The notes beneath the pieces were generated by a model. The model had not been told where the DNA came from. It worked only from the letters and a program-made list of their open reading frames with translations, and did not search any database. From Methylotuvimicrobium buryatense 5G (GTDB lineage Bacteria; Pseudomonadota; Gammaproteobacteria; Methylococcales; Methylomonadaceae): a stretch of 64,000 bases of DNA. The position numbers and the translations under genes were made by a program. Numbering within the stretch: position 1 is the first letter of the stretch; each line of letters begins with the position of its first letter. The stretch covers positions 1,146,399-1,210,398 of the forward strand of contig NZ_KB455575.1 in assembly GCF_000341735.1 (NCBI RefSeq), read 5' to 3'. Below are positions 29,855 through 63,042 of this stretch, one piece after another.

Positions 29855-29863
29855 CGTAGAAAT

Positions 29864-31236: not shown

Positions 31237-31247
31237 ACTCTCGACTC

Positions 31248-34096: not shown

Positions 34097-35438
34097 GACT
34101 TTTCTTCGGGAAATATTTATCGATCAAGGCTTGTTTCATTAATAACTCGCTTTCCTCGAAACATTCGGCCAAGGTTTGCCATCCTAAATCCAAGGCCTGT
34201 TCCAATGAAATAGAGACATTGATGTCCATGAAACGTTTTTTAAATAATTGCCCGAATCGAAGCAATTTTTTATCGTAATCGGACAAATCGAAAGCCATCG
34301 CCTGCTTTTGTTCGGCGTCGACCGAGCCCGCGTAAAAACGGATCATCGTATTCATGATTTGCGCATGATCCTCGCGCGTGACCTTACCGATGACATGTTG
34401 CTTCAACCTAGACAACGAACCGAAAGGATCGAGCATGCCGTCGTGCAAATAAAACTGGCCCTCGGTAATATAACCGGTATTGTCCGGAACCGGATGCGTC
34501 ACATCGTTACCCGGCATCGTTGTCACCGACAAAATCGTAACGGAACCGGCACCTTTATAATCGCAGGCTTTTTCGTATCGGCGCGCCAACTGCGAATAGA
34601 GATCGCCCATATAGCCGCGGTTCGACGGAACATGCTCCATTGAAATACCGACTTCCTTCATTGCATCGGCGTAAGCGGTCATATCAGTCATCAACACCAA
34701 CACCCGCTTGCCCTCTTCTACTGCAAAGCGTTCCGCGACCGCCAATGCCATATCCGGCACCAATAGCCGTTCGACGATAGGATCGGAAGCCAGATTGCAA
34801 AACATCACGGTCCTCGCAAATACTCCCGCTTCCTCAAATTGCGATCTAAAATAATGAAAATCATCGAAAATCAGGCCAAGCCCTGCAAAAACCACGATAT
34901 CGGCATCAGCCTGAATGCCGATTCTAGCCAAAAATGCGTTAAACGGTTCGCCGGAAATAGAGAAAATCGGTATCTTCTGACTTTCCACCAGACAATTGAA
35001 CAGGTCGATCATCGGCACTTGCGTTCGTATCATTTTCGAAGCTAAAACTCGTTTCATCGGGTTCACCGATGCACCGTTAATCGTCACTTTCGGGTCGGGC
35101 TTAAGCGTCGAACCACCGTCCATCGGCTCCCCCGTACCATTAAAAATCCGGCCAAGAATATTCGCAGAATAAGTCACTCGCATCGAATGACCTAAAAAAC
35201 GCACCGACGCCGCAGTCGAAATGCCCCGAGTTCCCGAGAAAACCTGCAAAGCCACCTTGCTACCGTCGATTTTGATAACTTGTGCCAAAGATTCGCTGCC
35301 GTTGCCGTCTTCGACTTCGGCTAAATCCCCGAACCGGGTTGTGATTTCTTGGTTTGCGAAGGTATTGTCAACTTTCACAGTAATGATATTACCGACAATG
35401 GACAAAATATTGTAATGTCTGACCATATGTTCGATCAT
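34077..35438 (-). CDS. atpB: V-type ATPase regulatory subunit B
   Basis: A 453-residue B subunit. It is related to subunit A but lacks the glycine-rich P-loop; instead there is FSISGEPFNAFLARIG. Typical B motifs are MDGGSTLKPDP and NTGYITEGQFYLH. It is the first gene of the operon. An in-frame ATG four codons inside the start is an alternative. No other ATPase genes precede it, so the operon starts with B rather than with E. Confidence 0.95.
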   Translation of the reverse strand: MIEHMVRHYNILSIVGNIITVKVDNTFANQEITTRFGDLAEVEDGNGSESLAQVIKIDGSKVALQVFSGTRGISTAASVRFLGHSMRVTYSANILGRIFNGTGEPMDGGSTLKPDPKVTINGASVNPMKRVLASKMIRTQVPMIDLFNCLVESQKIPIFSISGEPFNAFLARIGIQADADIVVFAGLGLIFDDFHYFRSQFEEAGVFARTVMFCNLASDPIVERLLVPDMALAVAERFAVEEGKRVLVLMTDMTAYADAMKEVGISMEHVPSNRGYMGDLYSQLARRYEKACDYKGAGSVTILSVTTMPGNDVTHPVPDNTGYITEGQFYLHDGMLDPFGSLSRLKQHVIGKVTREDHAQIMNTMIRFYAGSVDAEQKQAMAFDLSDYDKKLLRFGQLFKKRFMDINVSISLEQALDLGWQTLAECFEESELLMKQALIDKYFPKKSHGQTLA

Positions 35439-42310: not shown

Positions 42311-42823
42311 TTAATGCCAGCCACCATATTGCTTAGTCGGGTCACCTTTAAAGCCGGTAGACGTTCCCTTTCCACTCGACTTTTTATTTTGTCGAATCGC
42401 ATTGATAGCGGCCTGAGCCATGTTTTGCTTAGTCACCCCCCCCAAATTTCTAGCCGATTCGACGACCAGCGTCGACATCGTCGAAATATCCTGCATCGCC
42501 AATGCCGAATCCATCACAACCGCTTCCAGTAATGTATTCTCGTCTACGGCAATCTCGAGCGTCACCGGATAAGCGGATCCAGGCGGCAATGCTATCGAAT
42601 AGTGGGCTTCTTGATCGGGTTCGGCAGTAGCAATCGTCGATCCATTTTTGTCCTTCGCGAGAATTTTTCCACTAACAATCAATTCGTCTCGATCGGTCAC
42701 GGTGCCCTCAATAACATGCGTAGAGCTGATCCCGACTTGTTTCGCGCTACTGGAAGAATCACCGCAAGCCACGACTACCGACACAATGGTCGCACAAAAA
42801 ATAAGCTTAAATAAATTATTCAT
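42311..42823 (-). CDS. Small lipoprotein co-translated with the copper ATPase
   Basis: A 170-residue protein from the ATG at 42823, which overlaps the ATPase stop as TGATG and has a strong AGGAGGAAGG ribosome site. The signal peptide ends in VVVAC (lipid Cys20). The mature part has a beta-rich region (VIEGTVTDRDELIVSGKILA and YSIALPPGSAYPVTLEI) like a transthyretin or carboxypeptidase-regulatory fold, then a helical region and a Gly/Lys-rich tail ending QYGGWH. I do not recognise the family. No metal-binding Cys/Met/His cluster is obvious, so its link with copper is by position only. Confidence 0.8.
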   Translation of the reverse strand: MNNLFKLIFCATIVSVVVACGDSSSSAKQVGISSTHVIEGTVTDRDELIVSGKILAKDKNGSTIATAEPDQEAHYSIALPPGSAYPVTLEIAVDENTLLEAVVMDSALAMQDISTMSTLVVESARNLGGVTKQNMAQAAINAIRQNKKSSGKGTSTGFKGDPTKQYGGWH

Positions 42824-45078
42824 CACCTTCCTCCTAATTTCACCCACCGAAGCCGGTTGGCATTCATCACAACAGTGACCGACGACATTGCCATCGCGGC
42901 ACCAGCAATCATCGGGTTCAATAAAATACCGAACAACGGATACAACAAGCCGGCCGCGACCGGAATACTGATTGTGTTATAAAAAAACGCGCCCAACAAA
43001 TTTTGTTTAATATTGATGACTGTCGCCTTGGACAATTCGATGGCTTCGGGCACTTTCATCAACGAACCTTGCAAAATAACGACATCCGCGCTTTCGATCG
43101 CGACATCGGTGCCGGTACCGATCGCGATACCGACATCGGCTTGCGCCAGAGCCGGCGCATCGTTAATGCCGTCACCGACCATGCCGACCTTTTCTCCTCT
43201 CTCTTGTAATTCCTTGACGACGGCGGCTTTGTCCTGCGGCAACACTTGCGCCCTAACTTCCGAAATACCGGCCTGGCCGGCAATTGCTTTTGCCGTAACT
43301 TCGTTATCGCCGGTCACCATAATAATGCGTATGCCTTGCTCTTTAAGCTGTTTAATCGCTTGTTTAGAATCTTTTTTAATCGGATCGGCCACCGCGACAA
43401 TTCCGGCGATTTCGTTATCGACCGCCAACAGCATCGGCGTTTGGCCCTGCTTCGATAATGCTTGCATTGGCTCCGAATAAGCCGCGCAATCGACGTCTTT
43501 TTGCGCCATTAGCGCAGTATTGCCGAAATAAACCTGACGTTTATCGATTTCAGCGCAAACTCCGTGGCCTGCAACGGCTTGGAAACGCCGTGCCCGTGAC
43601 GTCTTGATACCGCGTCGCTCCGCTTCGGCCAAAATAGCTCCCGCCAAAGGATGCTCGGAACCCGACTCGATACTGGCAGAGATTTGCAGCACTTGTTCTT
43701 CGGAAAAACCGTTCACAGCCTCGATTGTTGAAACCGAGGGTTTACCTTCGGTAACCGTGCCGGTTTTATCGAGAATCACACAAGTCATTTTACCTGCCGT
43801 CTGCAAGGCTTCCCCGTTACGAATCAAAATCCCCATTTGTGCCGCCCGTCCGACCGAAACCATGACTGAAATCGGCGTTGCCAAGCCCAATGCGCATGGA
43901 CACGCGATGACGAGTACCGTCATCGAAGTCACGAAGGCATACCCCAGGGACGGCTCGGGACCGAAGCCTAACCATATAAGAAATGTCAATACAGATAAGG
44001 CGACTACGGCCGGCACAAAAATACTCGAAATTCTGTCGGCCAAACGCGCGATATCGGGTTTGCTGCCTTGCGCCTGACGCACGCTTTTAATAATCTGAGC
44101 CAATGCGGTGTCGCGGCCGATTCGCGTCGCCTTAAAAATAAAACTCCCTTTTTGATTCATCGTGCCCGCGGCAACCGATGAACCTTCGGTTTTTTCGACC
44201 GGCAAGGGTTCGCCTGTCAACATCGATTCATCGACGGACGAATGCCCTTCGGTCACTGTTCCGTCCACCGGAATTTTTTCGCCGGGGCGGACCCGCAAGA
44301 TTTCGCCGAGCCCGACATCGTGAATCGGAATATCGATTTCCTTGCCTTCACGGATGACTCTCGCGGTACGCGGTTGAAGCCCGATCAACTGACGAATCGC
44401 ACCCGACGTTTTGCCGCGCGCTAAGGTTTCCAAACCGGAACCTAAATTGATGAACGCCAAGATAATCACGGCCGCTTCGAAATAAGCATGCTTGGCGAGC
44501 GACGGCAAGGCATCGGAATAATCGATCACGATCGACGAATACAACCAAGCCGAACCGGTTCCCAGCGCGATTAAGGTATCCATATTGGCCTGACCGTGAG
44601 ACAGCGACTTGATCGCGCCGCTATAAAAATGCCAGCCTGAATAAATCAAAATACCCAAGGTCATCAAGGAAAGCTGCGGCCAAAACCATTGACCGGCTTC
44701 CGAACCGATTTCGGGCAGCCAGTTGAAATGATCGCCCAACATCAACGGAATACCCAACGCGGCAGCCGCTGCTGCTTTTTTCATCAACGAACGATAGCGT
44801 TTGAGCTCGAGTTCTTCCTGTTCGGAGGGATCTTCATCCAAACCTTCCATGACGGCCGCATCGTAACCCGCCGCTTTTACCGCCTTGGTCAATGCGTCCG
44901 GATCGGCATCGCCTTTGACTTGAGCCGAATGATCGGCAAAATTGACCGAAACCTCGGCCACGCCTTCAACTTCCGCCAAGGCGGTTTCAACGGCTCCAAC
45001 GCACCCGGCACAACGCATGCCCAAAATCGACAGGCGCAGTTCGGGCATCGTCATCTCGGATTCGTTTTGTGTGCTCAT
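42823..45078 (-). CDS. copA: Copper-translocating P1B-type ATPase (CopA)
   Basis: A 751-residue P-type ATPase from the ATG at 45078 (MSTQNESEM) with a GGAG ribosome site; an ATG at 45132 would add 18 unlikely residues. It has one N-terminal metal-binding domain (GMRCAGC, C23 and C26), the membrane CPC motif (393-395, IACPCALG), the phosphorylation site DKTGT (D437), SEHPLA, and the Cu(I) P1B-1 signature residues YN and MSS in the last two helices ([20 protein letters not shown]). It exports Cu(I) from the cytoplasm. Confidence 0.95.
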
Positions 45079-45249
45079 AATAATCTCCGAATAGAAGTGA
45101 ATAAGGTTAAAGGGGCAAGGCTTAAGGTGCAAGGGGCAAGGAGCTTAAGGGGCAAAGCACCTTTCATCTTTCACCTTTCATCTTTCACCTTTCATCTTTC
45201 ATCTTTCATCTTTCATCTTTCATCTTTCACCTTGAACCTTATTAATCCC
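45079..45249. other. Leader between copper chaperone and copA
   Basis: 171 bp containing AAGGGGCAAGG/TTAAGG words repeated several times (45107-45158) and the heptamer array listed separately. On the minus strand it forms the spacer between the chaperone stop and the copA start. Confidence 0.6.
45161..45230 (-). repeat. Ten-copy heptanucleotide tandem repeat upstream of copA
   Basis: Ten consecutive units of CTTTCAT or CTTTCAC (70 bp) on the plus strand. On the coding strand of copA each unit reads ATGAAAG or GTGAAAG, so it holds a string of start codons each with a weak AAAG ribosome-like word. Copy number 10 with a 7-bp period is not a multiple of three. Such arrays change length by slippage. 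Confidence 0.95.
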
Positions 45250-45459
45250 TCATTCCACAGAAAAACCCGCATCGATCACGGCATCTTCTATTTCTTCGAC
45301 CTCGATCTTAGCCGGATCGTAGCCCACCTCCACTTTATTGTCTTTATGGCTTGCGGAAACCGATAACACACCATCCAGTGTTTTTAATTTATCGCTGATA
45401 TTGGTTTCGCAACCGCCGCATTTCATACCTGTTACCGTCAGCACAATTGTCTCGCTCAT
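45250..45459 (-). CDS. copZ: Copper chaperone, heavy-metal-associated domain (CopZ-like)
   Basis: A 69-residue HMA protein from the ATG at 45459 (ribosome site GGAGAGGAC). The metal site is C14 and C17 in GMKCGGC. The rest follows the ferredoxin-like fold (VGYDPAKIEVEEIEDAVIDAG). It should carry Cu(I) to the ATPase encoded 171 bp downstream. Atx1/CopZ proteins of this size are normal; MerP-like mercury binding is possible but the neighbour supports copper. Confidence 0.92.
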   Translation of the reverse strand: MSETIVLTVTGMKCGGCETNISDKLKTLDGVLSVSASHKDNKVEVGYDPAKIEVEEIEDAVIDAGFSVE

Positions 45460-45611
45460 GTCCTCTCCACTGATTCTAGTCATAATATTAAATTAAAACG
45501 CACTATGCACCGCTCGACGCATATTTGTTAAACATGATATAAACTAATTCAAAAAAATAGTCTAACGCTCAAATACAATACAACCAAATACAATGCTTTC
45601 ATACTTTGTTT

Positions 45612-48970: not shown

Positions 48971-49210
48971 CTAACGTTCATGAAAGCCCGGCAATCACCC
49001 CGGCAAATGAAAGTACGAGACGTGGGGAGGGCGCGGTCACTCGCCCGACAGGACGCCGTGAATACGTCCATGTAGGCTCGATGGCGGCTATCCTGCCGCC
49101 AACGCCTGTCGATCGAGCAACCGCACCCTCTCCGGAACCGGCATTGCCAGAACAGAGATTTGTATATCGAAAAATTAGATAATGAATCCAAATTTACGAA
49201 CTTTCACAGT
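48971..49210. repeat. Family C repeat (copy C2, reverse)
   Basis: A 240-bp element with ends CTAACGTTCATGAAAGCCC and ACGAACTTTCACAGT, core GGACGCCGTGAATACGTCC and CGATCGAGCAACCGCACCC. It is reversed relative to C1, C3 and C4. The family K end follows without a gap. Confidence 0.9.
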
Positions 49211-49476
49211 AAAAAGAGCAGTTGAAATGTGTTGTAGACCGTTCGTGCTGAGCTAAGTCGAAGCATGAAGGGTATACAACACTTTCACCGTCGTGGTGAA
49301 GGGTACGATCACTCACCCGACAGGCCAGCTCCATTCTGGTCCCTCACCGGGCGTTAGATGATGGACCGCACACACCGATGCCTGCTCAGGCGCTGCCGAA
49401 ATTTGAAGCATGAAAGGTATAATTAAATACTTTCGTGATTTTCGTGTGTTTCGTGGACAAAATGCTTTTTATGGAT
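49211..49476. repeat. Truncated family K repeat (K2) followed by C/A fragments
   Basis: 49211-49305 matches K1 (AAAAAGAGCAGTTGAAATGT, GACCGTTCGTGCTGAGC) but the right inverted end is missing. It then runs into C-like (CACTCACCCGACAGGCC) and A-like words (TGCCGAAATTTGAAGCATG, AAAGGTATA). This is a mosaic at the end of the sensor gene, with no frame. Confidence 0.7.
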
Positions 49477-50754
49477 TTATAACGGAGCCTCAGCTCCGGC
49501 CTCTTTATTGACCGGCAAATAGACACGGAATTTTGTTCCTTTACCTAATTCCGATGTCAAATCGATCGTCCCGCCATGCTCCTTGATGATCTTATAGGAC
49601 AGCGATAAACCCAAGCCCGTCCCCTTACCGACCGGCTTAGTCGTAAAAAACGGGTCGAATATTTTCCGCCTAACCTCCTCGGACATGCCGCAACCGGTAT
49701 CTTCAACCTCTATCCATACCCTATCGTTACCTTGACCGCCCGTTCTTATAATTATTTTTCCTGATTTTTCGATGGCTTGGGCGGCATTCACCAGCAAATT
49801 CATCACGACTTGATTGATCTGTGAGCCGACGCAGTTAATCGGTGTAAGCCCCCCATATTCCTTGATAATTTCCGCCTTATATTTTAATTCGTTATTCACG
49901 ATGTTAAGTGTGGCATCGATGCCCGACTCAAGGTCATGCAGACCGCTTTCGTTCTCATTCATATGCGAAAACTCGCGAAGATTCTGAATGATTTTTCTTG
50001 CTCGCACTGCCCCTTCGATCGACTCCTCGATCAAATCGCCTAAATCGGCTTTAAAATCATCGTAATCCAATTCTTCTTTAAGCTTCTGGAAAAACAACAC
50101 ATCGGGGTGGTCTTGCGGCAACTGCCGGGAAAATTTTTCGGCCAATTCGAAAATAGACAACACCGACTGTAAGCGATCTTTTAAGCCTTCCAAATTCGCA
50201 TATACATAACTCAGCGGGTTATTGATCTCATGAACAATACCGGCCGCCAACAAGCCTAATGATGCCATTTTTTCGGATTGAAATAAAAACGCCTGAGCCT
50301 CTTTTAATTCGCCCATGCGGCGTTCGATTTCGCTTTTTAGCCATACATTTTGACTTTCCAGTAAGTCGCGCTCGTTTTTTAGCGCCAATTGGCTTTTAAC
50401 TCGAGCCATGACGATGCCCGGCACAATCGGTTTAACGATATAATCGACGGCCCCCAATTGCAAACCGAACGCCTCATCGGCTTGATCGTCTAGCGCCGTC
50501 ACGAAAATCACCGGGATTTCACAACATTCCGGTTCGGCTTTCAGTCGACGGCACAAATCGTAACCGCTCATCCCCGGCATCATCACATCAAGCAATATCA
50601 AATCAGGCATATACTCGCGCGCCAATTTCAAACCTTTTTCACCGGATGTAGCAACTTGAACACTATAATCATCTTTTAAAACTCCAGCCATCAGTTCAAG
50701 ATTAGCCGGCATATCGTCGATGATCAGTATCTTTTTTTTATTATCCATGCTCAT
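49477..50754 (-). CDS. Response-regulator/histidine-kinase hybrid (REC-HisKA-HATPase)
   Basis: A 425-residue soluble protein. REC domain 1-120 with phospho-acceptor D56 ([13 protein letters not shown]) and K109; a coiled linker; a kinase domain with H175 ([15 protein letters not shown]) and HATPase with DTGCGM and [18 protein letters not shown] receiver followed by a kinase in one chain suggests that phosphorylation of the REC controls the kinase, a form common near chemosensory or HD-GYP genes. Single gene between repeats. Confidence 0.92.
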
Positions 50755-50799
50755 TTCTCATACTTATCAAGCCGCGCATTAATCGAATACCGAACGCTT

Positions 50800-51027
50800 A
50801 CTGTGAAAGTTCGCGGATTTGAAATCTTAATCTAGTTTTTCGATATTCAACACAATGCCGGTTCCGAAGAGGGGGCGGTTGCTCGATCGACAGGCGTCGG
50901 CGGCAGGGAGCCGCCGTCGAGCCTACATGGACGTATTCACGGCGTCCTGTCGGGCGAGTGACCGCACCCTCCCCACCCCAGAGAGCTTTCATTTACCGGG
51001 GCGATGGCTAGGCCTTCATGAACGTTA
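50800..51027. repeat. Family C repeat (copy C3)
   Basis: A 228-bp element with ends ACTGTGAAAGTTCGCGG and TTCATGAACGTTA, core CCTACATGGACGTATTCACG. It is tandem with C4, sharing the base at 51027. Confidence 0.92.
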
Positions 51028-51270
51028 CTGTGAAAGTTCGTAGATGTAGACTCTTTATCTAATTTTTCGATATACAAAAGCTCAGCAACGAAAATGCCGG
51101 TACCGAAGAGGGTGCGGTTGCTCGATCGACAGGCGTCGGCGACAAGAATAGCCGCCGTCGAGCCTACATGGACGTATTCACGGCGTCCTGTCGGGCGAGT
51201 AACCGTACCTTACCCTTACCCCTCGCGCTCTCATTTTCCGGTGTAATGACGGCTTCTTCATGATTGTTAG
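51027..51270. repeat. Family C repeat (copy C4), tandem with C3
   Basis: A 244-bp element with ends ACTGTGAAAGTTCGTAGAT and TTCATGATTGTTAG. Its right end contains the TAA stop (51267-51269, minus strand) of the hybrid kinase gene. C3 and C4 point the same way. Confidence 0.92.
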
Positions 51271-54200
51271 GATTTAGACAAACCGTCATTATCCTTATCC
51301 GATACACTTCTCAATATCCGTAAAGCCTCATCATAATCGAACCGGTCAATATACCGATTAAATATCGCATAACGATCGCCCAAATAGACCCGCAACATCG
51401 CCGCCGATTCACGGCTTAAACTGCCGGCTTTAACATTGCTCTCATCCAGTAAGCGCTCAAGGTCTTGGATGAGGCTCCTCAAACGCTCTGGATCGATATC
51501 AATCGACTCGAGATCATCCTGTTCGGTTGCTTCGGGCAAAGACTGAATTGCCTCGACCAACTGTATTAATTCATGTTCGCATGCAAGCGCCAATTTCATA
51601 CAATCGTCCGGCCCGGCATCCGCACGTAAGGCATTGTCCAATGCTGCCGCACAATCGGCGACAACCCTAGCGCCTAAAGTCGCGGCTACGCCTTTCAGAC
51701 CATGCGCTAAGCGACGAACGGCTTCGTTATCGCCGGAAGCTAATTGTTTCCGTGCCAGACTCATGTCTTGTCGATGCGATTGCGCAAACATGCGTAGAAG
51801 CCGTCGATACTTACCAATATCGCCGTTGACCATTTGCAGGCCCTTAACCGTATCCACGCCCGGTATATCCCCTAGCTCGCTTTGGCTATTCGATTGATCG
51901 AACACCATTCGAGACTCCTCAGACCGATTATCGAGCTCCGGCAAGTCATGTTTTTCGCGCGCCAACCAACGCAACACCACGGTATAAAGTACCTCCGGAA
52001 TCACCGGCTTGGCGATGAAATCATTCATTCCGGCGTCAAAACAAACACGACGATCTTCGTCGAAAGCATTAGCGGTCATCGCCAAAATCGGCAACCGCAC
52101 ATACTCCGTTTGAGAACGAATCGCCCGGGTAGCCGCCAAACCGTCCATCTCGGGCATCTGCATATCCATCAATATCAAATCGTACTGTTTCGACCGGACT
52201 TTATCCAATGCCACACGGCCATTTTCGGCCGTATCCACCGACAAACCGACACCATGTAATAACTCTAAAACGACTTCTCGATTAATCGGGTTGTCTTCCG
52301 CCACAAGTAAACGCGCCCCCGCATATCGGCGACGCAATAGATCATCGACAGCTCTAGTTGTTTCAACTTGTACCGCAGGCATCACTCCACGCCCGCGCCG
52401 AAGCCAAGCGGTAAACCAAAATGTACTACCCTGCCCAATCCGGCTTTCAACGCCAACGTCCCCGCCCATCATGGTCGCAAGCCTTTTGGTAATCGCCAAC
52501 CCCAAACCGGTACCGCCGTATTTTCGGGTAATCGACACATCGGTTTGAGAAAAAGATTCAAACAATAACGGCAAGTGCTCTTCGGCGATGCCGATTCCCG
52601 AATCCTGAACTTCAAAACGTACTAACAAGCCTTGCTCGTTCTCTTGTAACAGTTTGGCGCGCAAGACAATCGAGCCTTTCTCGGTGAATTTCACCGCATT
52701 GCCCGCATAGTTCAACATCGCTTGACGCAGACGTGTCGGATCGCCTCTAAGCCAATGAGGAACGCCGTCGCTACCCGAACTAACCGACAAGCCTTTGAGC
52801 TTGGCTTGATCGGAAACCAATGACTTAATATGATCCAATACGGCCTCGAGCGCGAAGTCGGTTTGCTCTAATTGCAAACGTCCAGCCTCGATCTTGGATA
52901 AGTCCAAAATATCATTAATAATCGACAACAAGTGTTGAGCGGAAACCTCGATTTTAGTCAGGCGTTCGCCTTGCACGGGCGACAACGGGCTTTGTTTTAA
53001 TAAATATGTCAATCCCAGAATCGCATTCATCGGCGTACGGATTTCATGACTCATATTCGCTAGAAACGAGCTCTTAGCCTTGTTTGCCGCATCCGCCGCG
53101 GCACGCGCTTTTTCCAGCTCCGCCGTTCGATCGGCGACCAGTTCTTCCAAATGATGACGGTAGCGATCCAATTCCTCGCCGTTATGTTTTTTGTCGGTAA
53201 TATCCTCTTTGACCGACACATAATGCGTAATACGACCATCCGGTTGACGGAGCGGCGAAACGATCGCGAACTCGATATATTCGCTGCCGTCCTTGCGCCG
53301 GTTAATAAATTCGCCTTTCCAAGTTTCACCGCGCCTCATTGCATCCCAAAATTGAATGAACGTCTCAGGCGGCGTCTTACCGGAGTGTAAAATTTTAGGA
53401 TTACGACCGATTACCTCGTCAAGGCTAAAGCCTGTAATGGCCAAAAATGCTTGATTGACATATTCGATCTCGGCATCCAAATTGGTGATCACAATGCTTT
53501 CGGGACTCTGCTCGACAGCCTGAGCGAGCTTGCGCAACTGCTCCTCGGTTCGTTTACGCTCAGTAATATCGCGGACAATACCAGCAGCATGCCAATGCCC
53601 GTCCAATTTGACCGACGACAGGGAAAGCTCGACCAAAAACTCCTCGCCGTTTCGGCGAACGGCCGGCAATTCCAAAGTACGGCCGACAACAGGTCCCTCC
53701 CCTGTTTGTTTGAAATACGATAACCCGGCTGAGGCCGCGTCATGTAAACGGGAAGGCGCAATCAAAGAATGCAGCGTTTTCCCCTTCACATCGTCTTGCG
53801 TATAACCGAATATTGCCTCGGCTCCGGGATTCCAAATAATTATTTGTTCGTTTGCATCCATTAAAATAAAGGCATCCCGAATGTTCTCCACCGCCACCCG
53901 GAAACGCGCTTCACTATCGCGCAACTCTTGCTCCATCAATTTTTGCGCAGTAATATCGCGATGGTATCCATGCTTGCCTAGATAAGCCCCGTTCTCGTCA
54001 TGGATAGCCTTATTCTGATGACTGATCCAACGGATAGTGCCATTCTTGTGTACGATTCGAAATTCCAAATAGCCCTTTTTGTCTTTGCTATCGCTCATCA
54101 GATAGTGCCAATATCTATCCCGATCCTCTTCATGCACAAGCTCGTCCATGAGCTTGGCATTTTCAAGAAACGCATCGGCGGGGTAACCTGTTATTTGCGC

Positions 54201-54827
54201 ACACCCCGGCGAAATATAATTGAATTGCCCATCAGGATTGAGCCAAAAAATACAATCTGAAGAATTCTCGGCCAACAACCGAAATTTGGCTTCCGACTCC
54301 AACAATGCGGCATGCGCCTGTTCAGCCCTGGTTTGCGCAACGATCGCATCCTCCATTAAGTTCAACGCGGCCAGACGCGCTTGGCGTTGCTCCTCGAGGG
54401 CTTTCGCCTGGCTTTGCTTTAACGCGACTTCGGCATGTTGCAGAGCTCGATGCTCTTTGACTTCATTTAGAGCGCGATGGATGGACGAAGGCAAGCGGGC
54501 AAGATTATCCTTGAGTACGAAATCGCTGACGCCTTGCCATAACAAGTCCACGGCGACTTCTTCGCCGATCGCACTCGTCACTAAAATTACCGGCAAGTCA
54601 TCCCGGTACGATTTGATAGATTGGAGGGTCGAACGAAAATTCATGCCGGGTACATTATAATCGGAGAGCACCACATCCCATTCGTTTTGCAAGGCCCGCT
54701 GCAACTCCGCATTGGAGTTTACGCAATAACACACAGATGCGAGTCCATGCCTTCGCAAATAGCGCTCCAACAACAAAAAATCTGCCGCACTATCCTCAAT
54801 AACAAGAATTTTTTGCACATCATTCAT
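51267..54827 (-). CDS. Hybrid sensor histidine kinase (REC-PAS3-HisKA-HATPase-REC-HPt)
   Basis: A 1186-residue protein: REC (1-125, D56 in LSDYNVP), a coiled segment (125-180), three PAS domains (about 183-300, 305-425, 432-550), HisKA with H594 (NMSHEIRTP), HATPase with SGIGI and [11 protein letters not shown], a second REC ([13 protein letters not shown]) and a C-terminal HPt ([15 protein letters not shown]). It can run a full phosphorelay inside one chain. Start and the upstream gene's stop overlap as ATGA, so it is coupled to the ethylene-receptor-like kinase. Its TAA stop lies inside repeat C4. Confidence 0.95.
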
Positions 54828-56440
54828 GACGACTTGTTTCCTTCGACTGCAATTTCAGGCAATGAAAAGCAAAACTCAGCGCCTTTACTCGGTTGGCTAT
54901 CGACTTCGATTACGCCGCCATGCCGATTGATGATGCGTTTAACGGTAGCCAAACCGATACCAATTCCGGGAAATTCATTTTGATGATGCAAGCGTTGGAA
55001 AGGTTGAAATAAGCGTTCGGCATTTGCCATATTGAAGCCGACGCCATTGTCGGCCACACAAAAATAGCGAACGCCTTCTCGATCTTGGGCAAACACGCGA
55101 ATGCTCGCCGCTTTTTGTTTAGCCGTATATTTCCAAGCATTTTCGAGCAAATTTGATATGACCGACTCGATCATGCGTTTATCACAACTGGCATTCAGAC
55201 CTTGTTCGACCCGCACATCGACATGACGCCCCGGATTACTATCGGAGAGTTCGGCGAGCACGCGAACCGCCAGCGAAGAAATATCAACCCGATCACGGCT
55301 TAGCTCGCCGCGGGTATTTCGCGATAACGATAATAAGCCGTCGATCAAATCATTCATACGGCGGGTCGCAACACCGATCTGCTGCAAATATTCTTTTGCC
55401 TGGTCTTGCAGTTCATCCGCATAGTCTTCGATTAAGGCCCAACTAAAACCATTCAATGCTCGGATCGGAGCCCGTAAATCATGGGAGACCGCATAAGCGA
55501 AGCTGTCTAATTCCTGATTCGCCAAGGTCAGTTCTTCGGTTCTTTCCTCTACGCGCCGCTCTAAATCGGCATTGAGTCTGAGTATCTCTAACTCGTAATG
55601 CTTCCGCTCGGTTATATCCCGAGCAATCGTGGAAGAAGCCACCACTTTTTTCTCTTTATCGAAAATAGGTGAAATAGTCATCGCCACATCGAACAAATTG
55701 CCATTCTTATGTAAACACTGTAATTCGTGCTGCCTGACCGATTGCCCCCTGCCGACCGCTTCGACTAGCATCTGCTCTTGATTACGCTGTGTGGGTGCCA
55801 TCAGCGAGAGCAGCGATTGCCCTAAAACTTCCTTCGAGGTATAGCCAAACATCGCCTCAGCCGCCCTGTTCCAATCCGTTATGATTCCATCGGCACTGCC
55901 GCCAATAATCGCATCATCGGAAAACTCGACAATAGCCGCACGAAGTATTCGTTCCTTATGCAAGCTTAGTTCGATTTCAGACTTTGCTTGCCTTAACTGT
56001 TCTTCGACCCTTCTTCGTTCGATGATTTCAGCTTGTAATTGCTCATTGACTCGACGCAATTGCGAGGGACTGGGTAATCTAAGAGCATCGGGAAGTACAT
56101 ACCAGAGTGACACGGCGGCGCCGATCGAAATCAGAGCGGTAGCCGACTTGAAAATAACATCCAAGCCATACCAAGGTTGCCACAGTAAGACGGCCCCGAG
56201 CAGATGAGTCATTCCGCAAGCCATGATAAACGTGGCGAACATCCACAGCACCCATTGATAAGGAAAGTCCTTGCGTCGTCTCGCGAAATAAGACAACGCG
56301 GCCGGCATGGAAAAATAAGCGAGAAAAATCAATGTTTCGCTGACGACATAAGCCATCACCAAGGGCGGCGACCAACTTAAACAATAACCGTGAGGAAGCA
56401 AACCCTTTGTTGACAGAAATTGGCTCAGTTCATCGATCAT
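54824..56440 (-). CDS. Ethylene-receptor-like membrane histidine kinase (ETR1-type sensor, PAS, HisKA, HATPase)
   Basis: A 538-residue kinase. The first 120 residues have three membrane helices that match the plant ETR1 ethylene-binding domain without a gap: Y42, P46, C75 and H79 correspond to ETR1 Y32, P36, C65 and H69, each offset by 10, in [10 protein letters not shown] and [23 protein letters not shown]75 and H79 are the copper ligands in ETR1. ETR1 D25 is replaced by E35. Then come a PAS domain (about 165-278), HisKA with H320 ([16 protein letters not shown]) and HATPase ([20 protein letters not shown]). It is first in an operon with the hybrid kinase. Confidence 0.92.
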
Positions 56441-56596
56441 GACGCCACCGAATCAAGGCTAAAAAATGGATTGTATTTAACATATTTCAATAGATCCTGA
56501 GACTCAAATCTAAACTGGGTCGTTAAAGCATGGCGTAGGCTACGCAATCGGGCATGGGCTTGAATAGACTCTTCAAATGGTTCCCACGCTCTGCCC

Positions 56597-56738
56597 CACT
56601 GCCATTAAGGAACGGGTAACCCGTCATTCCGCCATGGACTGGCGGAATCCAGTGCCATGGATGGCAAGCTGTTAAAGTACATTAGAGCCTGAATGCAAGA
56701 AGTACTTATTTTTATGACGGCTTAACTTAATGGCAGTG
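56597..56738. repeat. Family E inverted-repeat element (copy E1)
   Basis: A 142-bp element with perfect 13-bp inverted ends, CACTGCCATTAAG and CTTAATGGCAGTG. Inside is CCGTCATTCCGCCATGGACT and its imperfect mirror GGCGGAATCCAGTGCCATGG. A second copy is at 60717. Confidence 0.9.
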
Positions 56739-56758
56739 ACTCTCTGTCCTCGTCCTTA

Positions 56759-56969
56759 TATACCTTTCGCACTTCAAATTTCGGCATTAGCCTATGGAGG
56801 TGCCGGGGTGTTAGGTCGATTTTTGCTCCTGCAAAATCGACATTCACGCCATCCATGGCGCTCGCAAAGGCTTTGATAGCATGGATGCTATCATAGAGCC
56901 TACATAGACGTATTTACGGCGTCCTTTGACAGGCACCCCGGCACCGAAATTTGACAAGCAAAGGGTATA
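56759..56969. repeat. Family A repeat, long form (copy A9)
   Basis: A 211-bp element with ends TATACCTTTCGCACTTC and GACAAGCAAAGGGTATA. It has the hairpin module GGTCGATTTTTGCTCCTGCA, absent from the otherwise similar A2 and A10, and the core CCTACATAGACGTATTTACG. Confidence 0.92.
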
Positions 56970-57253
56970 GATATTGTAGGATACGCTGCGCATACCTTCA
57001 TGCCGTTAAGTATCGAATCTCTACCTAGATCGAACCATAAGGTCTTGTGTCGAAATTGGCAGGGTTACCCTGGTACGCACAGCGTACCCTACAGAGTTCC
57101 AGCGCTTGCATGATTTTGCCATCGCGCTGGATGGCCGGCAGCGTATCGAAAAAGAAATGTGCATAACGAAAAGCACGGAGCGTGGCGACGATGAATACAC
57201 TACAAGTCCTCCGGGAGCGTATTGGGGTATCAAAAGCTTAAGTTATTTCACGC
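56970..57253. repeat. Small inverted repeat and unresolved sequence
   Basis: 56975-57100 has inverted ends GTAGGATACGCTGCGCATACC-like (57 nt apart words GTAGGATACGCTGCGCATAC and GTACGCACAGCGTACCCTAC). From 57110 a plus-strand frame without start (RLHDFAIALDGRQRIEKEMC) could be a gene relic, but it is too short to assign. Confidence 0.45.
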
Positions 57254-59509
57254 TCATTCCTTACCGCTTTCGTTGAATTGTATATCTTGCTGAGAATTAT
57301 CGAGAAAAGCTAGCGGATAAGGCGGACTCTGCCCTAGCCGCTTAGAAAGTTCATTGATTTTCTGCTTTAATGCAATCATATCGAGCTCACGCCCAACCGT
57401 CGCGCGATTAAAGCGCTCCAATTCCTGATTACGATCCTCTAGCTCTTCGGTTTGCCGGCGAAGCGTCTCTTCAACGGCCTTACGAGCGGTGATATCGGTA
57501 TGAGCGATGACCACGCCGTGTTCCTCAGTCTCCAATGGAGTGGCAGTCATCATAAACCAGCGCTGCCGTTCCGGCGAATGGCAGGCATATTCCAAGTAAA
57601 AAACTGGAACACGGCCTTCCAAAACCGCTAAAATTCCGTCTCTTGCCGTCATCGCGCCTTCGGACGATGGGCCGGTGCTTCTTTGACAAACGTCCAAATA
57701 ATTTACGCCGACATCAACTGAATTAAACGCCTCTCCGGACGCCAGTCCGTTGTCATGAGCAAAGCGCCGCCACGGTTGATTGACCGCTACAACGATTCCC
57801 TGTTTATCCAATACAGCGATATGCGCATTAACCGAATCCAAAATCGCACGCTTAAACGCTTCGCTTTGCCGCACAGCCAATTCCGCTTGCTTTCGTTCCG
57901 TGATATCTTGATCGAGGCCTCGAAAACCGAGCAATTGACCACCATCATCGAGAATCGGCGTACCGTGAGACATGATAAAACGCAAGGCGCCGTCTTTGTG
58001 ACAATTTATGCTCTCAATGTCACGAAACGATTTACGATGGGTCTTAATGCCTGCAAACCATTCACGTAGCTTGTCGGCTTCTTCGGAAGGCATAAAATCG
58101 AAGGGTGTCTTACCTAGCACTTCTTCGGGCGCATATCCAAGCATTTCGAATACGCCGTCAGATGAGTAAATGTAACGCGCGTTTGTGTCGATTTCCCAAA
58201 TCCAGTCCGCAGAAACATTTGCGATATCGTAAAAACGCCGCTCGCTTTCACGAAGCGCGTCTTCGGCGGCTTTGCGCGCGCTGATGTCGAGAAAGAGCCC
58301 TATGACGGCCGGCCGGCCTTGATAGTCGAAGGCACTGCCATGCGCTTCGATATACACAGGACTTCGGTCGCGGCGTAATGCGGTAAAACGGTAATTACTG
58401 ATCGAGGATACCGTTCCATTGATCAAGCTAGCGATGTTATTGGTGACTTCCTCAAGATACTCAGGGCTGATTAAATCGTCGACCGCCAATGTGTCGATAA
58501 TATGCTGTGTAGAGTCATATCCTAAAATCGATGCAAACGCCGGGTTAATGTAGCGAAATCGATTATCCTGAATGATATAAATACCGGCTAGCGATTGCTC
58601 CACCAATGCCCGAAAACGCTCCTCGCTATTTCGTAACGACCGTTCCGCTTGTTTTAGCTCGCTAATGTCGCGGGAAATCCCGAATATCCCGATGACATTA
58701 TTGTCGTTATCGAACAAAGGCCCCTTAGTGGCAAGAAATGTGCGTTTTTCGTTCGAAACTTCGAGATCCTCGTAGTAAGTAATGACTCGACCTTCTTCCA
58801 AAACAGCCCTATCGTTCGCGATAAGCATTTCGGCCTGTTCGGGTGAAAAAAGCGCCGTATCGTCAAGCCCCAGAACATCGACGGCCTTTTTTCCGGTAAA
58901 ACGCTCCGAAGCGGGATTAAAAAGCGTATAACGACCTTCCAAATCCTTTGCGAAAATCGCATCGTTTGAACTATCGGCGATTGCGGCTAATAAACCGAGG
59001 GCCTTTAACCGCTCCGCTTGAGCCCGTTGTATTGCTTGAGACTCGGCTAAACGTTCCTGTTGGCGTAACAGATAGAATCCCGTCCCAATTGTAAATATCG
59101 AGATTAAACCGGCAAGTCCCAACCAAGCCGAGTCTTGCATCGTTGCCGATCGTATTGGCGATAATTGCAATGGTTGATTGCCGAAAGATCCATATTGGCT
59201 ATAAGCAAATACGAATAAGAAAACGGCGACAATCAATAACGTCCAATGCACGCCTGTGCCGAAACGATTTTTTTCGGTATTTTCTGCAATGGCTTCCCGG
59301 TCCACCAAGCGGTGCATTAATTGAAACAGCAGCAACGATGTGACAATAACGAAGCCCCCCCCCTTAATGGTGCTAATTAACGCTATGTTATCCGACTCAT
59401 CAATAAGACTTGATAACAAGCTATCGGAAAAGAATATCCACAACGCGGCGTACAACGCATAAGTCAATACGACACGGATGATTTCCGCCCGAGGGTGTCG
59501 ACGAGACAT
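57254..59509 (-). CDS. Membrane PAS sensor protein without output domain
   Basis: A 751-residue protein. Hydrophobic segments lie at about 12-30, 40-62, 90-108 and 131-150. Four to five PAS domains follow (about 165-290, 295-415, 420-540, 545-680), each with the usual DITERK-type ends. The C terminus is a coiled coil (RRQTEELEDRNQELERFNRA) and ends without a kinase, GGDEF or other output. It is encoded 4 bp downstream of an HD-GYP response regulator and may act on it by direct contact. Confidence 0.9.
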   Translation of the reverse strand: MSRRHPRAEIIRVVLTYALYAALWIFFSDSLLSSLIDESDNIALISTIKGGGFVIVTSLLLFQLMHRLVDREAIAENTEKNRFGTGVHWTLLIVAVFLFVFAYSQYGSFGNQPLQLSPIRSATMQDSAWLGLAGLISIFTIGTGFYLLRQQERLAESQAIQRAQAERLKALGLLAAIADSSNDAIFAKDLEGRYTLFNPASERFTGKKAVDVLGLDDTALFSPEQAEMLIANDRAVLEEGRVITYYEDLEVSNEKRTFLATKGPLFDNDNNVIGIFGISRDISELKQAERSLRNSEERFRALVEQSLAGIYIIQDNRFRYINPAFASILGYDSTQHIIDTLAVDDLISPEYLEEVTNNIASLINGTVSSISNYRFTALRRDRSPVYIEAHGSAFDYQGRPAVIGLFLDISARKAAEDALRESERRFYDIANVSADWIWEIDTNARYIYSSDGVFEMLGYAPEEVLGKTPFDFMPSEEADKLREWFAGIKTHRKSFRDIESINCHKDGALRFIMSHGTPILDDGGQLLGFRGLDQDITERKQAELAVRQSEAFKRAILDSVNAHIAVLDKQGIVVAVNQPWRRFAHDNGLASGEAFNSVDVGVNYLDVCQRSTGPSSEGAMTARDGILAVLEGRVPVFYLEYACHSPERQRWFMMTATPLETEEHGVVIAHTDITARKAVEETLRRQTEELEDRNQELERFNRATVGRELDMIALKQKINELSKRLGQSPPYPLAFLDNSQQDIQFNESGKE

Positions 59510-59513
59510 TTTG

Positions 59514-60626
59514 TTATGCCATTACCGAATCGCTATATCGGTCGGCTATTTCGCAAAAGACATCGAAATGCTTCAAAAACACATCGACCATGACCGGATC
59601 GAAATGACTGCCGCGCCCCAAAGCAATAATATCCCTGGCTTCACCGTAACTCATCGGCGCCTTATAAACACGCGGAGAAATCAAAGCATCGAAGACATCG
59701 GCCAGCGCCATGATGCGCGCCGAAACCGGTATGCTTTCGCCGGACAAGCCATCCGGATAACCGGAACCGTTCCATTTTTCATGATGCCAATGGGCTATTT
59801 CCTTAGCCAACGACAAAAATTCGACTTGCCCCGCGGCATCTTGTTCAGCCATTTCAATCGCTTCGCTACCGATACGGGCATGCGTCTTCATCACGGCCCA
59901 TTCGGCGGATGTCAATGGCCCCGGCTTGAGCAAGATGGCATCGGGAATACCGACCTTGCCGATATCGTGTAACGGCGCCGAACGACTCAATAGTTTGATA
60001 AATTTATCGGTCAGCATATCGCAAAATCCAGGGGAATCGCGCAAAGCCAAGGCCAACTCTTGCACATAACCTTGGGTTCGCAGAATATGATTGCCGGTTT
60101 CAGGATCGCGCGCTTCGGCCAGATGAGCGAGAGCCCTGATACTGACCTCTTGTATCAGCTCGTTTTCCGCCATACGCCGCGCAATCTCGGCTTCCAACCA
60201 AGAATTTTGAGCCGACAAGCGATCGCGCGCTTGTTTAAGCTCTAATTGAATTCGGACGCGCGCCATGACGATCGGGGGCGAAATCGGTTTGGTAATATAA
60301 TCGACAGCACCGAATTCCAAACCCTGGAATTGCGCTTCGTCACTGTCCATCGCGGTGACGAAAATAATCGGAATATCTTTCGTGGCCGAATCGGCACGCA
60401 AATGCTCGAATACTTGATAACCGTCCATACCCGGCATCATCACATCGAGCAAAATTAAATCGGGATGCGGCGCAGTGCCGGCAATACGCAAGGCCTTTTC
60501 TCCAGACGTGGCGACGCTCACTTGAAATTGAGTTTGCAGTAAATCGCTGAGAACGCACAAATTTTCCGGCGAGTCGTCGACGATCAGTATTTTAGCGTTA
60601 GAGTTTTCCGGCATTGATAGGCTCAT
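59514..60626 (-). CDS. Response regulator with HD-GYP c-di-GMP phosphodiesterase domain
   Basis: About 370 residues from the ATG at 60626 (MSLSMPENSN). A TTG at 60665 and an ATG at 60614 are other choices. REC domain with D61 ([13 protein letters not shown]), a coiled linker, then an HD-GYP domain with HD at 220-221 (PLHDIGKVGIPD) and HHEKWNGSGYPDGLSG (281-296), all residues for a metal-dependent c-di-GMP hydrolase being present. It is first in an operon with the PAS sensor. Confidence 0.93.
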   Translation of the reverse strand: MSLSMPENSNAKILIVDDSPENLCVLSDLLQTQFQVSVATSGEKALRIAGTAPHPDLILLDVMMPGMDGYQVFEHLRADSATKDIPIIFVTAMDSDEAQFQGLEFGAVDYITKPISPPIVMARVRIQLELKQARDRLSAQNSWLEAEIARRMAENELIQEVSIRALAHLAEARDPETGNHILRTQGYVQELALALRDSPGFCDMLTDKFIKLLSRSAPLHDIGKVGIPDAILLKPGPLTSAEWAVMKTHARIGSEAIEMAEQDAAGQVEFLSLAKEIAHWHHEKWNGSGYPDGLSGESIPVSARIMALADVFDALISPRVYKAPMSYGEARDIIALGRGSHFDPVMVDVFLKHFDVFCEIADRYSDSVMA

Positions 60627-61092
60627 GGATGAGTGGAAATGGAGTAGAGCGCTAAAAACTTCCAAGCACCTGAAATTTTGTAATTATTCCCGCCCTATCA
60701 TTCCCATGCTCTGCGTCACTGCCATTAAGTTAAGGGATACCCGTCATTCCGCCATGGACTGGCGAAATCCAGCGCCATGGATGGCAAGCTTTTGAAGCAC
60801 ATTCGAGCCCGAATGACAGCATTACTTATTCTGTGGCGGCTTAACTTAACGGCATTGATGATCTAAGTGGGAACGAGAATTAAAGGGGACTAAATAGCTA
60901 CGAAATTTTCACCAAATCTAACATACAAAAGCAAGTGCCGCACAACAATTATGGATATATTTTTGATCTGAGAGGAAAATTGCTTCAACCTATGCCTTCC
61001 GCATACCGCTCGCCAGCCATACAGGCGCCATGTGGAGATTTCGGCTATAATTTCGTACTTATCCGCATAAAAATTATCAAATCATTCCGCAG
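60627..61092. other. Divergent promoter region containing repeat E2
   Basis: Lies between the HD-GYP gene and the ligase gene, which diverge. Apart from the family E copy at 60717 there is no recognisable element; sequence from 60900 to 61090 is AT-rich and must hold the ligase promoter. Confidence 0.4.
60717..60857. repeat. Family E inverted-repeat element (copy E2)
   Basis: A 141-bp element with ends CACTGCCATTAAGTTAAG and CTTAACTTAACGGCATTG. It matches E1 across its full length (CCGTCATTCCGCCATGGACT, CGCCATGGATGGCAAGCTT). Each of the two copies lies 5' of a divergent sensory gene. Confidence 0.9.
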
Positions 61093-63042
61093 ATGCTAAC
61101 CGATAATCAAAAAGACATTCTCGAGCGCTCAAATGTTCAATTAAAACAACTGAGCGAGGAAAAACTCATAGCAATTGCCTCGCGAACGACCGACGAAGAG
61201 AAACTCAACGACAAGGAACTCGTCGAATTCATCGAGATAGCCAATGCCTTGTATCGAGGCGGCGATGCGCTGATTAGCGATGCCGAATACGACTTTACTT
61301 TTATCGCCGAACTGAAGCGCCGTCATCCGAACCACCCTTTCGTAACGCGCGTCGAACCGGAATCGGCTTTCGCCGGTAAAACGGTTGAATTACCGGTTAG
61401 AATGCTATCGACCGACAAGGCCTATAGTCAAAGCGAAATCGAGAATTGGGCCAAACGCATTAAAAAAGCGGCCGACGAACTAAACATAGCCTTCGATTCT
61501 CTTGTTTTCAAGGTAACGCCGAAACTGGACGGCTATGCGGCCTATGACGACGGCGAACGGCTTTATACGCGCGGCGACGGCAGAAAAGGCACCGACATCA
61601 CACGCGTCTTCGAGCGCGGCTTACAAGTCGCGGATAATGGTTCCCGCGGCCTGGGTGCCGGCGAAATCGTCGTCGGCAAAACCTATTTTCAGCGTTATCT
61701 GTCCGAGTTTTTCGATAACACACGTAACTTTCAGGCCAGCGTCATCAAGGAAAAAGATCTGGAGCAACACGCGGAACAGGCGATTAAGGATCAAGCTGCG
61801 GTATTTTTTCCTTTTACGAAACTGCCCGCTTGGCAAGGCAGTTGGACGGAACTTGCCGAGCGCTTCGATGAGATCGTAAAACAAATCTGGCATGCGGTAG
61901 ATTATGACGTCGACGGCGTAATACTCGAAATTACCGACGAGCGAATAAAAACCCATATGGGTGCCACCCGCCATCATCATCGTTGGCAAATCGCCTACAA
62001 GGAAAATGTCGCGACCGCCGAAGTCAAGATCCTCCAAGTCGTACCGCAAACTTCGCGCTCAGGCCGCATCACACCGGTCGTCGAAGTCGAACCGATCCGT
62101 CTGAGCGGCGCAATGTTGCAACGGGCGACCGCTCACCATTATAAGATGGTCGTCGACAAAGGGATCGGTCCCGGCGCGGTGATCAAGCTCGCCCGAAGCG
62201 GCGAGGTCATTCCGAAAATCGAGGAAGTCATCACACCGGCCGAACCGGATCTTCCGGAACAATGCCCAAGTTGCGGCAGCGAGTTGGTTTGGGACGGCGA
62301 CTTTTTGTATTGCACGAACAATTTCGACTGCCCCGCCCAGGTCAGTCATTCGATAGAACATTTTTTTCGGGTACTCGGCAATAACGACGGTTACGGCCCG
62401 GCGACGATCGCCAAACTTTACGATAACGATATCCGAACGATCGATAAAATCTACCAACTCAACGCATCGGATTTCGAAGCAATGGGTTTCGGCCCGAAGC
62501 AGTCGCAAAATTTGGTCGATCAATTGCAGCGTAGTTTATCCGAACCGATCGAGGACTGGCGGTTTCTGGCCGCGTTCGGCGTATTCCGAATGGGGCTTGG
62601 CAACTGCGAAAAACTGCTCGCACACTACCGTTTACCGGAAATCTTTTCGTTGAGCGAAGCAGAAATCGTCGCGCTCGAAGGCTTCGCCGAGAAAACTGCC
62701 GATATCGTACTGAAAGGTTTGAAAAAAATCGAACCGTTGTTCAACCAATTATATCGTTTAGGCTTTGTATTGAACGAAACCAAAACCCAGGAAATGCCTG
62801 CGGGACAAAGCCCCATAGCCGGCAAATCCTTGGTGTTCACCGGCACGATGCAACAAGGCTCGCGCGAGGATATGATTCGCGAAGCCAAAGCAATGGGCGC
62901 GAAAGTCGGTAGCGCGGTTAGCGGAAAAACCGACTATTTGGTCATAGGGGAAAAGGTAGGGGCAACCAAATTAAATGCCGCCGAAAAACACGGCGTACGC
63001 ATACTGAGCGAAGCCGAATATCTGGATTTGATCGGTCGATAG
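61093..63042 (+). CDS. Diverged NAD-dependent DNA ligase (LigA-like)
   Basis: A 649-residue protein with full LigA architecture: Ia-like N terminus (ISDAEYD, 61-67), adenylation domain with the lysine nucleophile K144 (TPKLDGY), TRGDG (159-163), GE (E191) and AYK (K303), OB fold, zinc finger (C391, C394, C407, C413), helix-hairpin-helix and a BRCT domain (about 575-649). Two usual active-site residues differ: the Glu before the nucleophile (ELK in E. coli) is Thr (TPK), and motif IV DGVVIK reads DGVILE, losing the lysine. The protein is probably a second, specialised ligase. The ribosome site is weak. Confidence 0.85.
   Translation: MLTDNQKDILERSNVQLKQLSEEKLIAIASRTTDEEKLNDKELVEFIEIANALYRGGDALISDAEYDFTFIAELKRRHPNHPFVTRVEPESAFAGKTVELPVRMLSTDKAYSQSEIENWAKRIKKAADELNIAFDSLVFKVTPKLDGYAAYDDGERLYTRGDGRKGTDITRVFERGLQVADNGSRGLGAGEIVVGKTYFQRYLSEFFDNTRNFQASVIKEKDLEQHAEQAIKDQAAVFFPFTKLPAWQGSWTELAERFDEIVKQIWHAVDYDVDGVILEITDERIKTHMGATRHHHRWQIAYKENVATAEVKILQVVPQTSRSGRITPVVEVEPIRLSGAMLQRATAHHYKMVVDKGIGPGAVIKLARSGEVIPKIEEVITPAEPDLPEQCPSCGSELVWDGDFLYCTNNFDCPAQVSHSIEHFFRVLGNNDGYGPATIAKLYDNDIRTIDKIYQLNASDFEAMGFGPKQSQNLVDQLQRSLSEPIEDWRFLAAFGVFRMGLGNCEKLLAHYRLPEIFSLSEAEIVALEGFAEKTADIVLKGLKKIEPLFNQLYRLGFVLNETKTQEMPAGQSPIAGKSLVFTGTMQQGSREDMIREAKAMGAKVGSAVSGKTDYLVIGEKVGATKLNAAEKHGVRILSEAEYLDLIGR

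Follow-up and report, generated by a model that had tools for sequence, protein, structure and literature searches.

The window, a stretch of 64,000 nucleotides of the Methylotuvimicrobium buryatense 5G genome, contains a minus-strand gene for a histidine kinase with an N-terminal ethylene-binding domain (EBD), together with several signalling genes on the same strand (Table 1). The coupling to a large phosphorelay hybrid kinase claimed in the preliminary description is supported, as the domains of the hybrid were found by Pfam and the start of its gene overlaps the EBD kinase gene by four bases. The window genome shares the order ligase, REC-HD regulator, multi-PAS protein, EBD kinase, hybrid kinase and REC-HK protein with genomes G002-G005 of the genus; in an extra stretch of the window genome (L118), the REC-HK gene is cut at the stretch end. 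No RNA element reaches the gathering score in 49000..61200. The scans for promoters (8 against 7.9 expected) and for terminators (10 against 7.6 expected, standard deviation 2.7) returned numbers close to chance. Upstream of the EBD kinase gene lies a gap of 813 bases (56441..57253), in which the region around 56600-56670 looks by eye like an inverted dispersed repeat element. Elsewhere in the window (28022..35438), this proteobacterium carries a V/A-type ATPase-like gene set with two ATP-synt_ab subunits, V_ATPase_I and DUF2764.

Table 1. Features of the EBD kinase locus, in window coordinates.
Feature	Position	Strand	Basis or remark
EBD histidine kinase, ETR1_N-PAS-HisKA-HATPase_c, 538 aa	54824..56440	-	ORF and Pfam
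Ethylene-binding-type domain (ETR1_N; residues 27-122) with helices predicted at 25-55, 62-84, 91-121	56075..56362	-	Pfam PF25487, AlphaFold2
E35 codon, position of ETR1 D25	56336..56338	-	Glu in 5 genus orthologs
M45 codon, position of ETR1 I35	56306..56308	-	second changed key residue
C75-x-x-x-H79, equivalent to Cu(I) ligands C65/H69 of ETR1	56204..56218	-	alignment
K98 (ETR1 K91), proposed polar-bond partner of Asp/Glu	56147..56149	-	role from PMC11819568
PAS domain, residues 167-278	55607..55942	-	Pfam
HisKA and HATPase_c	54854..55507	-	phospho-acceptor H320, codon 55481..55483
Hybrid kinase, 1186 aa, REC(D56)-PAS-PAS-PAS-HisKA-HATPase-REC(D888)-Hpt(H1042)	51267..54827	-	Pfam
Multi-PAS protein, 751 aa, upstream neighbour	57254..59509	-	conserved at all five genus loci examined, those of the window genome and four more
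REC-HD_5 (HD-GYP type) response regulator, two genes upstream of EBD kinase	59514..60665	-	kept in 5/5 genus loci examined

The window protein is a genuine member of the EBD family in a methanotroph. Its N-terminal part matches the Pfam profile PF25487 (ETR1_N) with an E-value of 5.6e-33 and 113.5 bits, against a cut-off of 27, over profile positions 2-97 of 97. Another three-helix family, the alternative raised in the preliminary description, is rejected, since ETR1_N is the sole Pfam family in this stretch at E <= 0.001. The alignment to residues 1-128 of ETR1 contains 36 identities in 98 positions (37%, 66.6 bits), and its Smith-Waterman score is 163, where 2000 shuffles gave a mean of 29.7, a standard deviation of 5.4 and a highest score of 67; the key residues of the ETR1 query sit at the expected numbers. 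The profile match and the shuffle-tested alignment thus bear out the ethylene-receptor-type membrane domain, and the offset of 10 noted earlier holds for Y42, P46, I72, C75 and H79, which fall on ETR1 Y32, P36, I62, C65 and H69. The C-terminal half has the parts of a two-component histidine kinase: H320, an NLLENA box and a HATPase_c match of 80.4 bits.

The EBD is predicted to form three transmembrane helices. An AlphaFold2 model of the domain as a monomer, computed from a 61-row alignment, has three long helices, a mean pLDDT of 94.0 and a pTM of 0.78. For ETR1, an AlphaFold model fits the EPR data worse than an ab initio model (PMC13012798). The domain has no sequence relatives in the PDB at E <= 1, and Foldseek returned no match among solved structures at E <= 0.001.

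Within the genus, residues E35, M45, C75, H79 and K98 are fixed in five of six genomes; the sixth (G001, 79% complete) is without the EBD kinase gene. The Glu35 codon is GAA in four of the five orthologs and GAG in one. The dN/dS ratio of residues 1-130 ranges from 0.035 to 0.174 over ten genome pairs, which are not independent, and in nine of these non-independent pairs it is lower than the ratios of residues 131-300 and 301-535.

Seven amino acids are needed for ethylene binding by ETR1 (PMC11819568), and I35, P36 and I62 have been named as essential (PMC6586836). At the seven positions the window protein reads EYMPICH (E35, Y42, M45, P46, I72, C75 and H79) where ETR1 reads DYIPICH, so that five of the seven are identical. 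Y32, one of the matches listed in the preliminary description, is taken here as one of the seven. The Cu(I) ligand positions C65 and H69 of ETR1 are kept as C75 and H79 in the sequence, in agreement with the earlier claim, and the counterpart of ETR1 K91 is present as K98. The claim that the exchange of D25 for E35 is the only key change has to be corrected, because ETR1 I35, essential for binding (PMC6586836), is also replaced, by M45.

Position 35 deserves attention because of what is known of its aspartate in characterized receptors. Mutation of D25 in ETR1 abolishes ethylene binding, and the D35A variant of AzoEtr1 from Azospirillum brasilense does not rescue biofilm formation (PMC11819568). 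Exchange of the conserved transmembrane Asp, taken here to be D25, for Asn lowers the affinity approximately 100-fold (PMC13012798, citing other work), and the same paper describes this Asp as a residue that largely determines the affinity of ethylene receptors. A literature search for Glu at this position found no report; the natural-variant lists of Azhar 2023 and Aman 2025 lay outside the search.

The variation at the site was surveyed in 80 EBDs, which are distinct sequences, each 90 residues or longer, drawn from the searches of relatives and of the phylum, chosen without regard to site residues and weighted to relatives; the set excludes two short matches (G012:C251 and G327:C1:1045533) and three rows that fall below 90 residues. 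Position 35 is Asp in 60 EBDs, Asn in nine, Glu in six, Gly in three, His in one and a gap in one. Cys75 is kept in 78 of the 80 and His79 in 76, Met occupies position 45 in eight, and the full seven-residue set is present in 36. Met45 occurs together with Asp35 in L083, L088 and L093, and therefore seems to predate Glu35 in the branch of the window protein. Positions 35 and 98 covary across 93 rows (Fisher p 3e-7), which we treat as a lead only; on independent pairs the covariation is not significant (same direction in two of four, opposite in none). In rows with Asn35, position 98 is never Lys, and it is Asp in seven of ten distinct rows. The Asn35/Asp98 combination may reflect exchanged charges in the bridge proposed between D25 and K91. 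The abstract of Azhar 2023 reportedly speaks of Asn variants.

Glu35 is rare, and five of its six occurrences among the 80 unselected EBDs are the ortholog set of the window protein. A scan for a motif of fixed spacing (PHG, Glu35, Y42, P46, C75 and H79) in the contigs of one genome per species, 84,980 species in all, found 17 stretches. The EBD profile matches 16 of them but not the remaining one (L075); two of the 16 belong to the window genus. EBDs that lack PHG or P46 escape the scan, which may also omit records near the window genome. Since the rows found in this way were picked for Cys and His, they cannot show that Glu tolerates copper binding.

A tree of 99 of the 102 distinct EBDs, calculated with columns 35 and 98 excluded, has Glu in three places: the window genus (five rows), a group of 13 rows that includes Rhodocyclales, Sulfuritalea and Gallionella, and one Rhodospirillales MAG. 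With five long or odd rows removed (94 rows), a single origin of all 19 Glu rows has an AU p of 0.018, and a single origin for the window genus and the 13-row group has an AU p of 0.051, which is no clear rejection. Glu35 thus seems, from this tree, to have arisen three times. K98 is kept in 13 of the 19 Glu rows. The rows in which Lys98 is lost are from proteobacterial MAGs (L062, L066, L068, L072, L073 and L078), with Leu in four and Asn in two. Closeness to the cyanobacterial clade, which the preliminary description proposed to examine, finds no support on this limited tree: the window protein lies in a 29-row branch (SH-aLRT 95) with the cyanobacterial rows L059 and L060 outside it, the rows are mostly from Pseudomonadota, the tree was built without ETR1 and SynEtr1, and 45 of its 96 inner branches are open.

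The closest characterized counterpart is AzoEtr1, which binds 14C-ethylene and whose gene overlaps that of a response regulator (PMC11819568). Its sequence (L056) was taken from plasmid NZ_CP012915.1 of A. brasilense Sp7 and has 525 residues, as in PMC11819568. AzoEtr1 and the window protein align over their full length with 28% identity (E 5e-50), ungapped in the first 160 residues, and D35, C75, H79 and K98 of AzoEtr1, equated in PMC11819568 with ETR1 D25, C65, H69 and K91, share columns with positions 35, 75, 79 and 98 of the window protein. The two proteins have the same EBD-PAS-HK order, similar lengths (525 and 538 residues) and the same C75/H79/K98 numbering, and in both cases the overlapping downstream gene starts with a receiver domain. 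However, AzoEtr1 has Asp35 and Ile45 where the window protein has Glu35 and Met45, and its partner is a single receiver of 135 residues (PMC11819568), whereas that of the window protein is the 1186-residue phosphorelay hybrid. SynEtr1 of Synechocystis, compared here by description and not by alignment, is likewise a bacterial receptor that combines an EBD and a histidine kinase (PMC11819568, PMC10452086), but responds also to light, via a phytochrome-like domain. Arabidopsis ETR1 resembles the window protein in the 98 aligned domain residues, the Cys/His pair and five of seven binding residues, and differs in Asp25 and Ile35 and in having no PHG..C segment before the first helix. ETR1 carries a GAF domain, in contrast to the PAS domain of the window protein, and a fused receiver domain.

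Among the nearest Asp-type rows on the tree (fork SH-aLRT 84) are L041 and L042, both from genome G060, and L083 and L088. All four have Asp35, and L083 and L088 share Met45 with the window protein; L041 differs in its two PAS stretches and its fused receiver domain. The Glu-type proteins L063, L064, L065, L074 and L076, as well as L067 and L077, from MAGs of Rhodocyclales, Sulfuritalea and Gallionella, share Glu35 and K98 with the window protein, but have Ile45 and belong to a separate tree branch. L064 and L065 have no room for a PAS domain between the EBD and the kinase, and a kinase query found no histidine kinase in the EBD ORFs of L067 and L077.

As at the window locus, a downstream partner gene with a receiver domain is present in L064, L065 and L077. 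The next gene encodes a REC-PAS-GAF-PAS-HD protein with a four-base overlap in L064, by eye a lone receiver protein with REC-PAS repeats after it in L065, and a 1235-residue hybrid with Hpt in L077; in L063 and L076, tblastn gave similar matches. Because a receiver gene lies directly downstream in AzoEtr1 and in the Glu-type loci, the natural reading here, by analogy, would be that the EBD kinase phosphorylates the receiver encoded by the following gene. Of the 68 EBD ORFs whose end lies within their locus, 14 have GGDEF or GGDEF-EAL domains (five of these are orthologs within the window genus), 36 have a histidine kinase with or without a receiver, and one has a receiver alone; these are rough lower bounds from a hand-picked set, in which 17 ORFs, including AzoEtr1 itself and some fragments, received no class by simple query. 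A second EBD protein of the window genome (856 residues; L034:4406-6976, G000:C1 near 3383616-3383897, outside the window) combines PAS and GGDEF-EAL domains with N35 and D98. AzoEtr1 and SynEtr1 influence biofilm (PMC11819568). As a reasonable guess from gene neighbourhood, the REC-HD regulator is a candidate route to a c-di-GMP output.

Considering the homology, the conserved residues, the overlapping and ordered genes and the selective constraint, we lean on balance towards a relative of AzoEtr1, SynEtr1 and ETR1 that would work as a Cu(I)-loaded dimer, bind ethylene or a similar ligand, and relay the signal to the hybrid kinase. The three membrane helices would provide the input to a histidine kinase dimer in which each site holds Cu(I) via C75 and H79, and the copper would bind ethylene or a similar small pi-ligand. 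In place of ETR1 D25, E35 could position H79 and bridge to K98, and E35 together with M45 would probably change the affinity. The signal may pass through the PAS domain to H320, from there to D56 in the N-terminal REC of the hybrid kinase and onward through its HisKA-REC-Hpt modules, and perhaps reach the neighbouring REC-HD-GYP regulator, with a change in c-di-GMP and surface behaviour. The absence of the bridge from part of the Glu group, in which six of the 19 rows are without K98, speaks against this mechanism. Because two of the seven binding residues differ and changes of D25 hurt binding, ethylene perception by the window protein is plausible, not more, and the label "ethylene receptor" outruns a sequence with five of the seven residues. 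The window protein is probably a relative of known receptors with a shifted sensitivity or ligand.

The genomic setting bears on the ligand. The window genome (5,067,278 bases in two contigs) contains one AMO/pMMO-family gene (PF02461, E 1.6e-134), and the host is therefore very likely a methanotroph. The copper chaperone and ATPase that the preliminary description regarded as a possible metal supply are both present: a CopA-type ATPase at 42823..45132 (TIGR01511, 622.6 bits against a cut-off of 397) and a CopZ-like protein at 45250..45483 (best NCBIfam model 60 bits, below its cut-off of 91). Their proximity is rejected as evidence because they lie 9-12 kb from the EBD kinase gene, with plus-strand genes in between, and belong to another transcription unit. 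No ethylene-making or ethylene-using genes were recognised among the annotated neighbours, and of the three papers found to mention both methanotrophs and ethylene receptors, none is by its title about receptors of this kind.

At E <= 0.001, 29 of 61 relatives have an EBD, as do 29 of 398 genomes of the phylum, own genome included, with one match per set below the curated cut-off; the contrast is inflated by the common descent of the relatives. The 29 relatives comprise 24 of 37 genomes of the own family and five of six of family f4, and EBDs are missing from all 18 genomes of six other families of the order. Thirteen of these 18 have an AMO-family gene, so that EBDs do not simply follow the monooxygenase and a tight link between the two is unsupported within the order. 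The AMO cut-off is passed by three of the 398 phylum genomes (G000, G162 and G247), of which only the window's own (G000) has an EBD. G247 belongs to another class, and EBDs occur in 14 of the 39 genomes of its genus but not in G247, the one genome of that genus in which AMO was examined. One genome of the same order (G060) has five EBD matches, one of them weak at 67 bits.

Particulate monooxygenase of methanotrophs needs copper, and a copper sensor, if true, would be of obvious use to an organism with such an enzyme. The EBD could then report Cu(I) occupancy, with E35 and M45 tilting the site towards metal sensing. The kept copper ligands, the AMO/pMMO-family gene and the use of Met as a common Cu(I) ligand fit this reading, as does the CzcA/CzcB/TolC-type (CzcA/CusA-type) efflux set that adjoins the gene for the second EBD protein in all five genus loci examined. 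However, that efflux set neighbours the second EBD protein and not the window protein, and queries for it gave no match in six loci from outside the genus (L117, L120, L121 with only 6.2 kb, L126, L127 and L128). M45 is also found with Asp and seems older than Glu, the local CopZ/CopA genes are unlinked, and within the order the AMO-family gene is no simple predictor of EBDs (EBD in 0/18 genomes of six families, 13 with AMO). We know of no copper-sensing EBD, and regard this reading as unlikely.

The changed pocket around unchanged copper ligands could also suit another small molecule that binds Cu(I), such as acetylene, CO, propylene or a by-product of methane oxidation. The enrichment of EBDs among relatives and their presence in the genus of AMO-bearing G247 agree with such a receptor, but the distribution is patchy, G247 and G162 have AMO without an EBD, and kinship inflates the contrast. 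We regard this reading as distinctly unlikely. It is improbable that the domain has degenerated into a ligand-free membrane anchor with input through the PAS domain: two of seven key residues are changed, but the copper ligands and K98 are fixed in the genus, and residues 1-130 have the lowest dN/dS in nine of ten pairs, albeit not independent ones.

Bacterial ethylene receptors are already known, and novelty of the Glu35 site is claimed only as far as the literature searches above reach. Going further than the receptor reading favoured above, it is conceivable, if doubtful, that the Cu(I) ethylene site has repeatedly been retuned in nature by Glu35 (with Met45), and that methanotrophs keep retuned sets of EBDs (E35/K98, N35/D98 and D35/K98; up to five per genome, as in G060) to read ethylene, other substrates or inhibitors of the monooxygenase, or copper, and to steer c-di-GMP. 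The copper enzyme of methane oxidisers oxidises ethylene, which raises the question why many of these organisms hold EBDs. Glu at the Asp site apparently arose more than once and has been kept in the genus, and thus provides nature's own test of side-chain lengthening. The window protein is suited to reveal the effect of Glu on ethylene binding, be it retuning, retargeting or loss.
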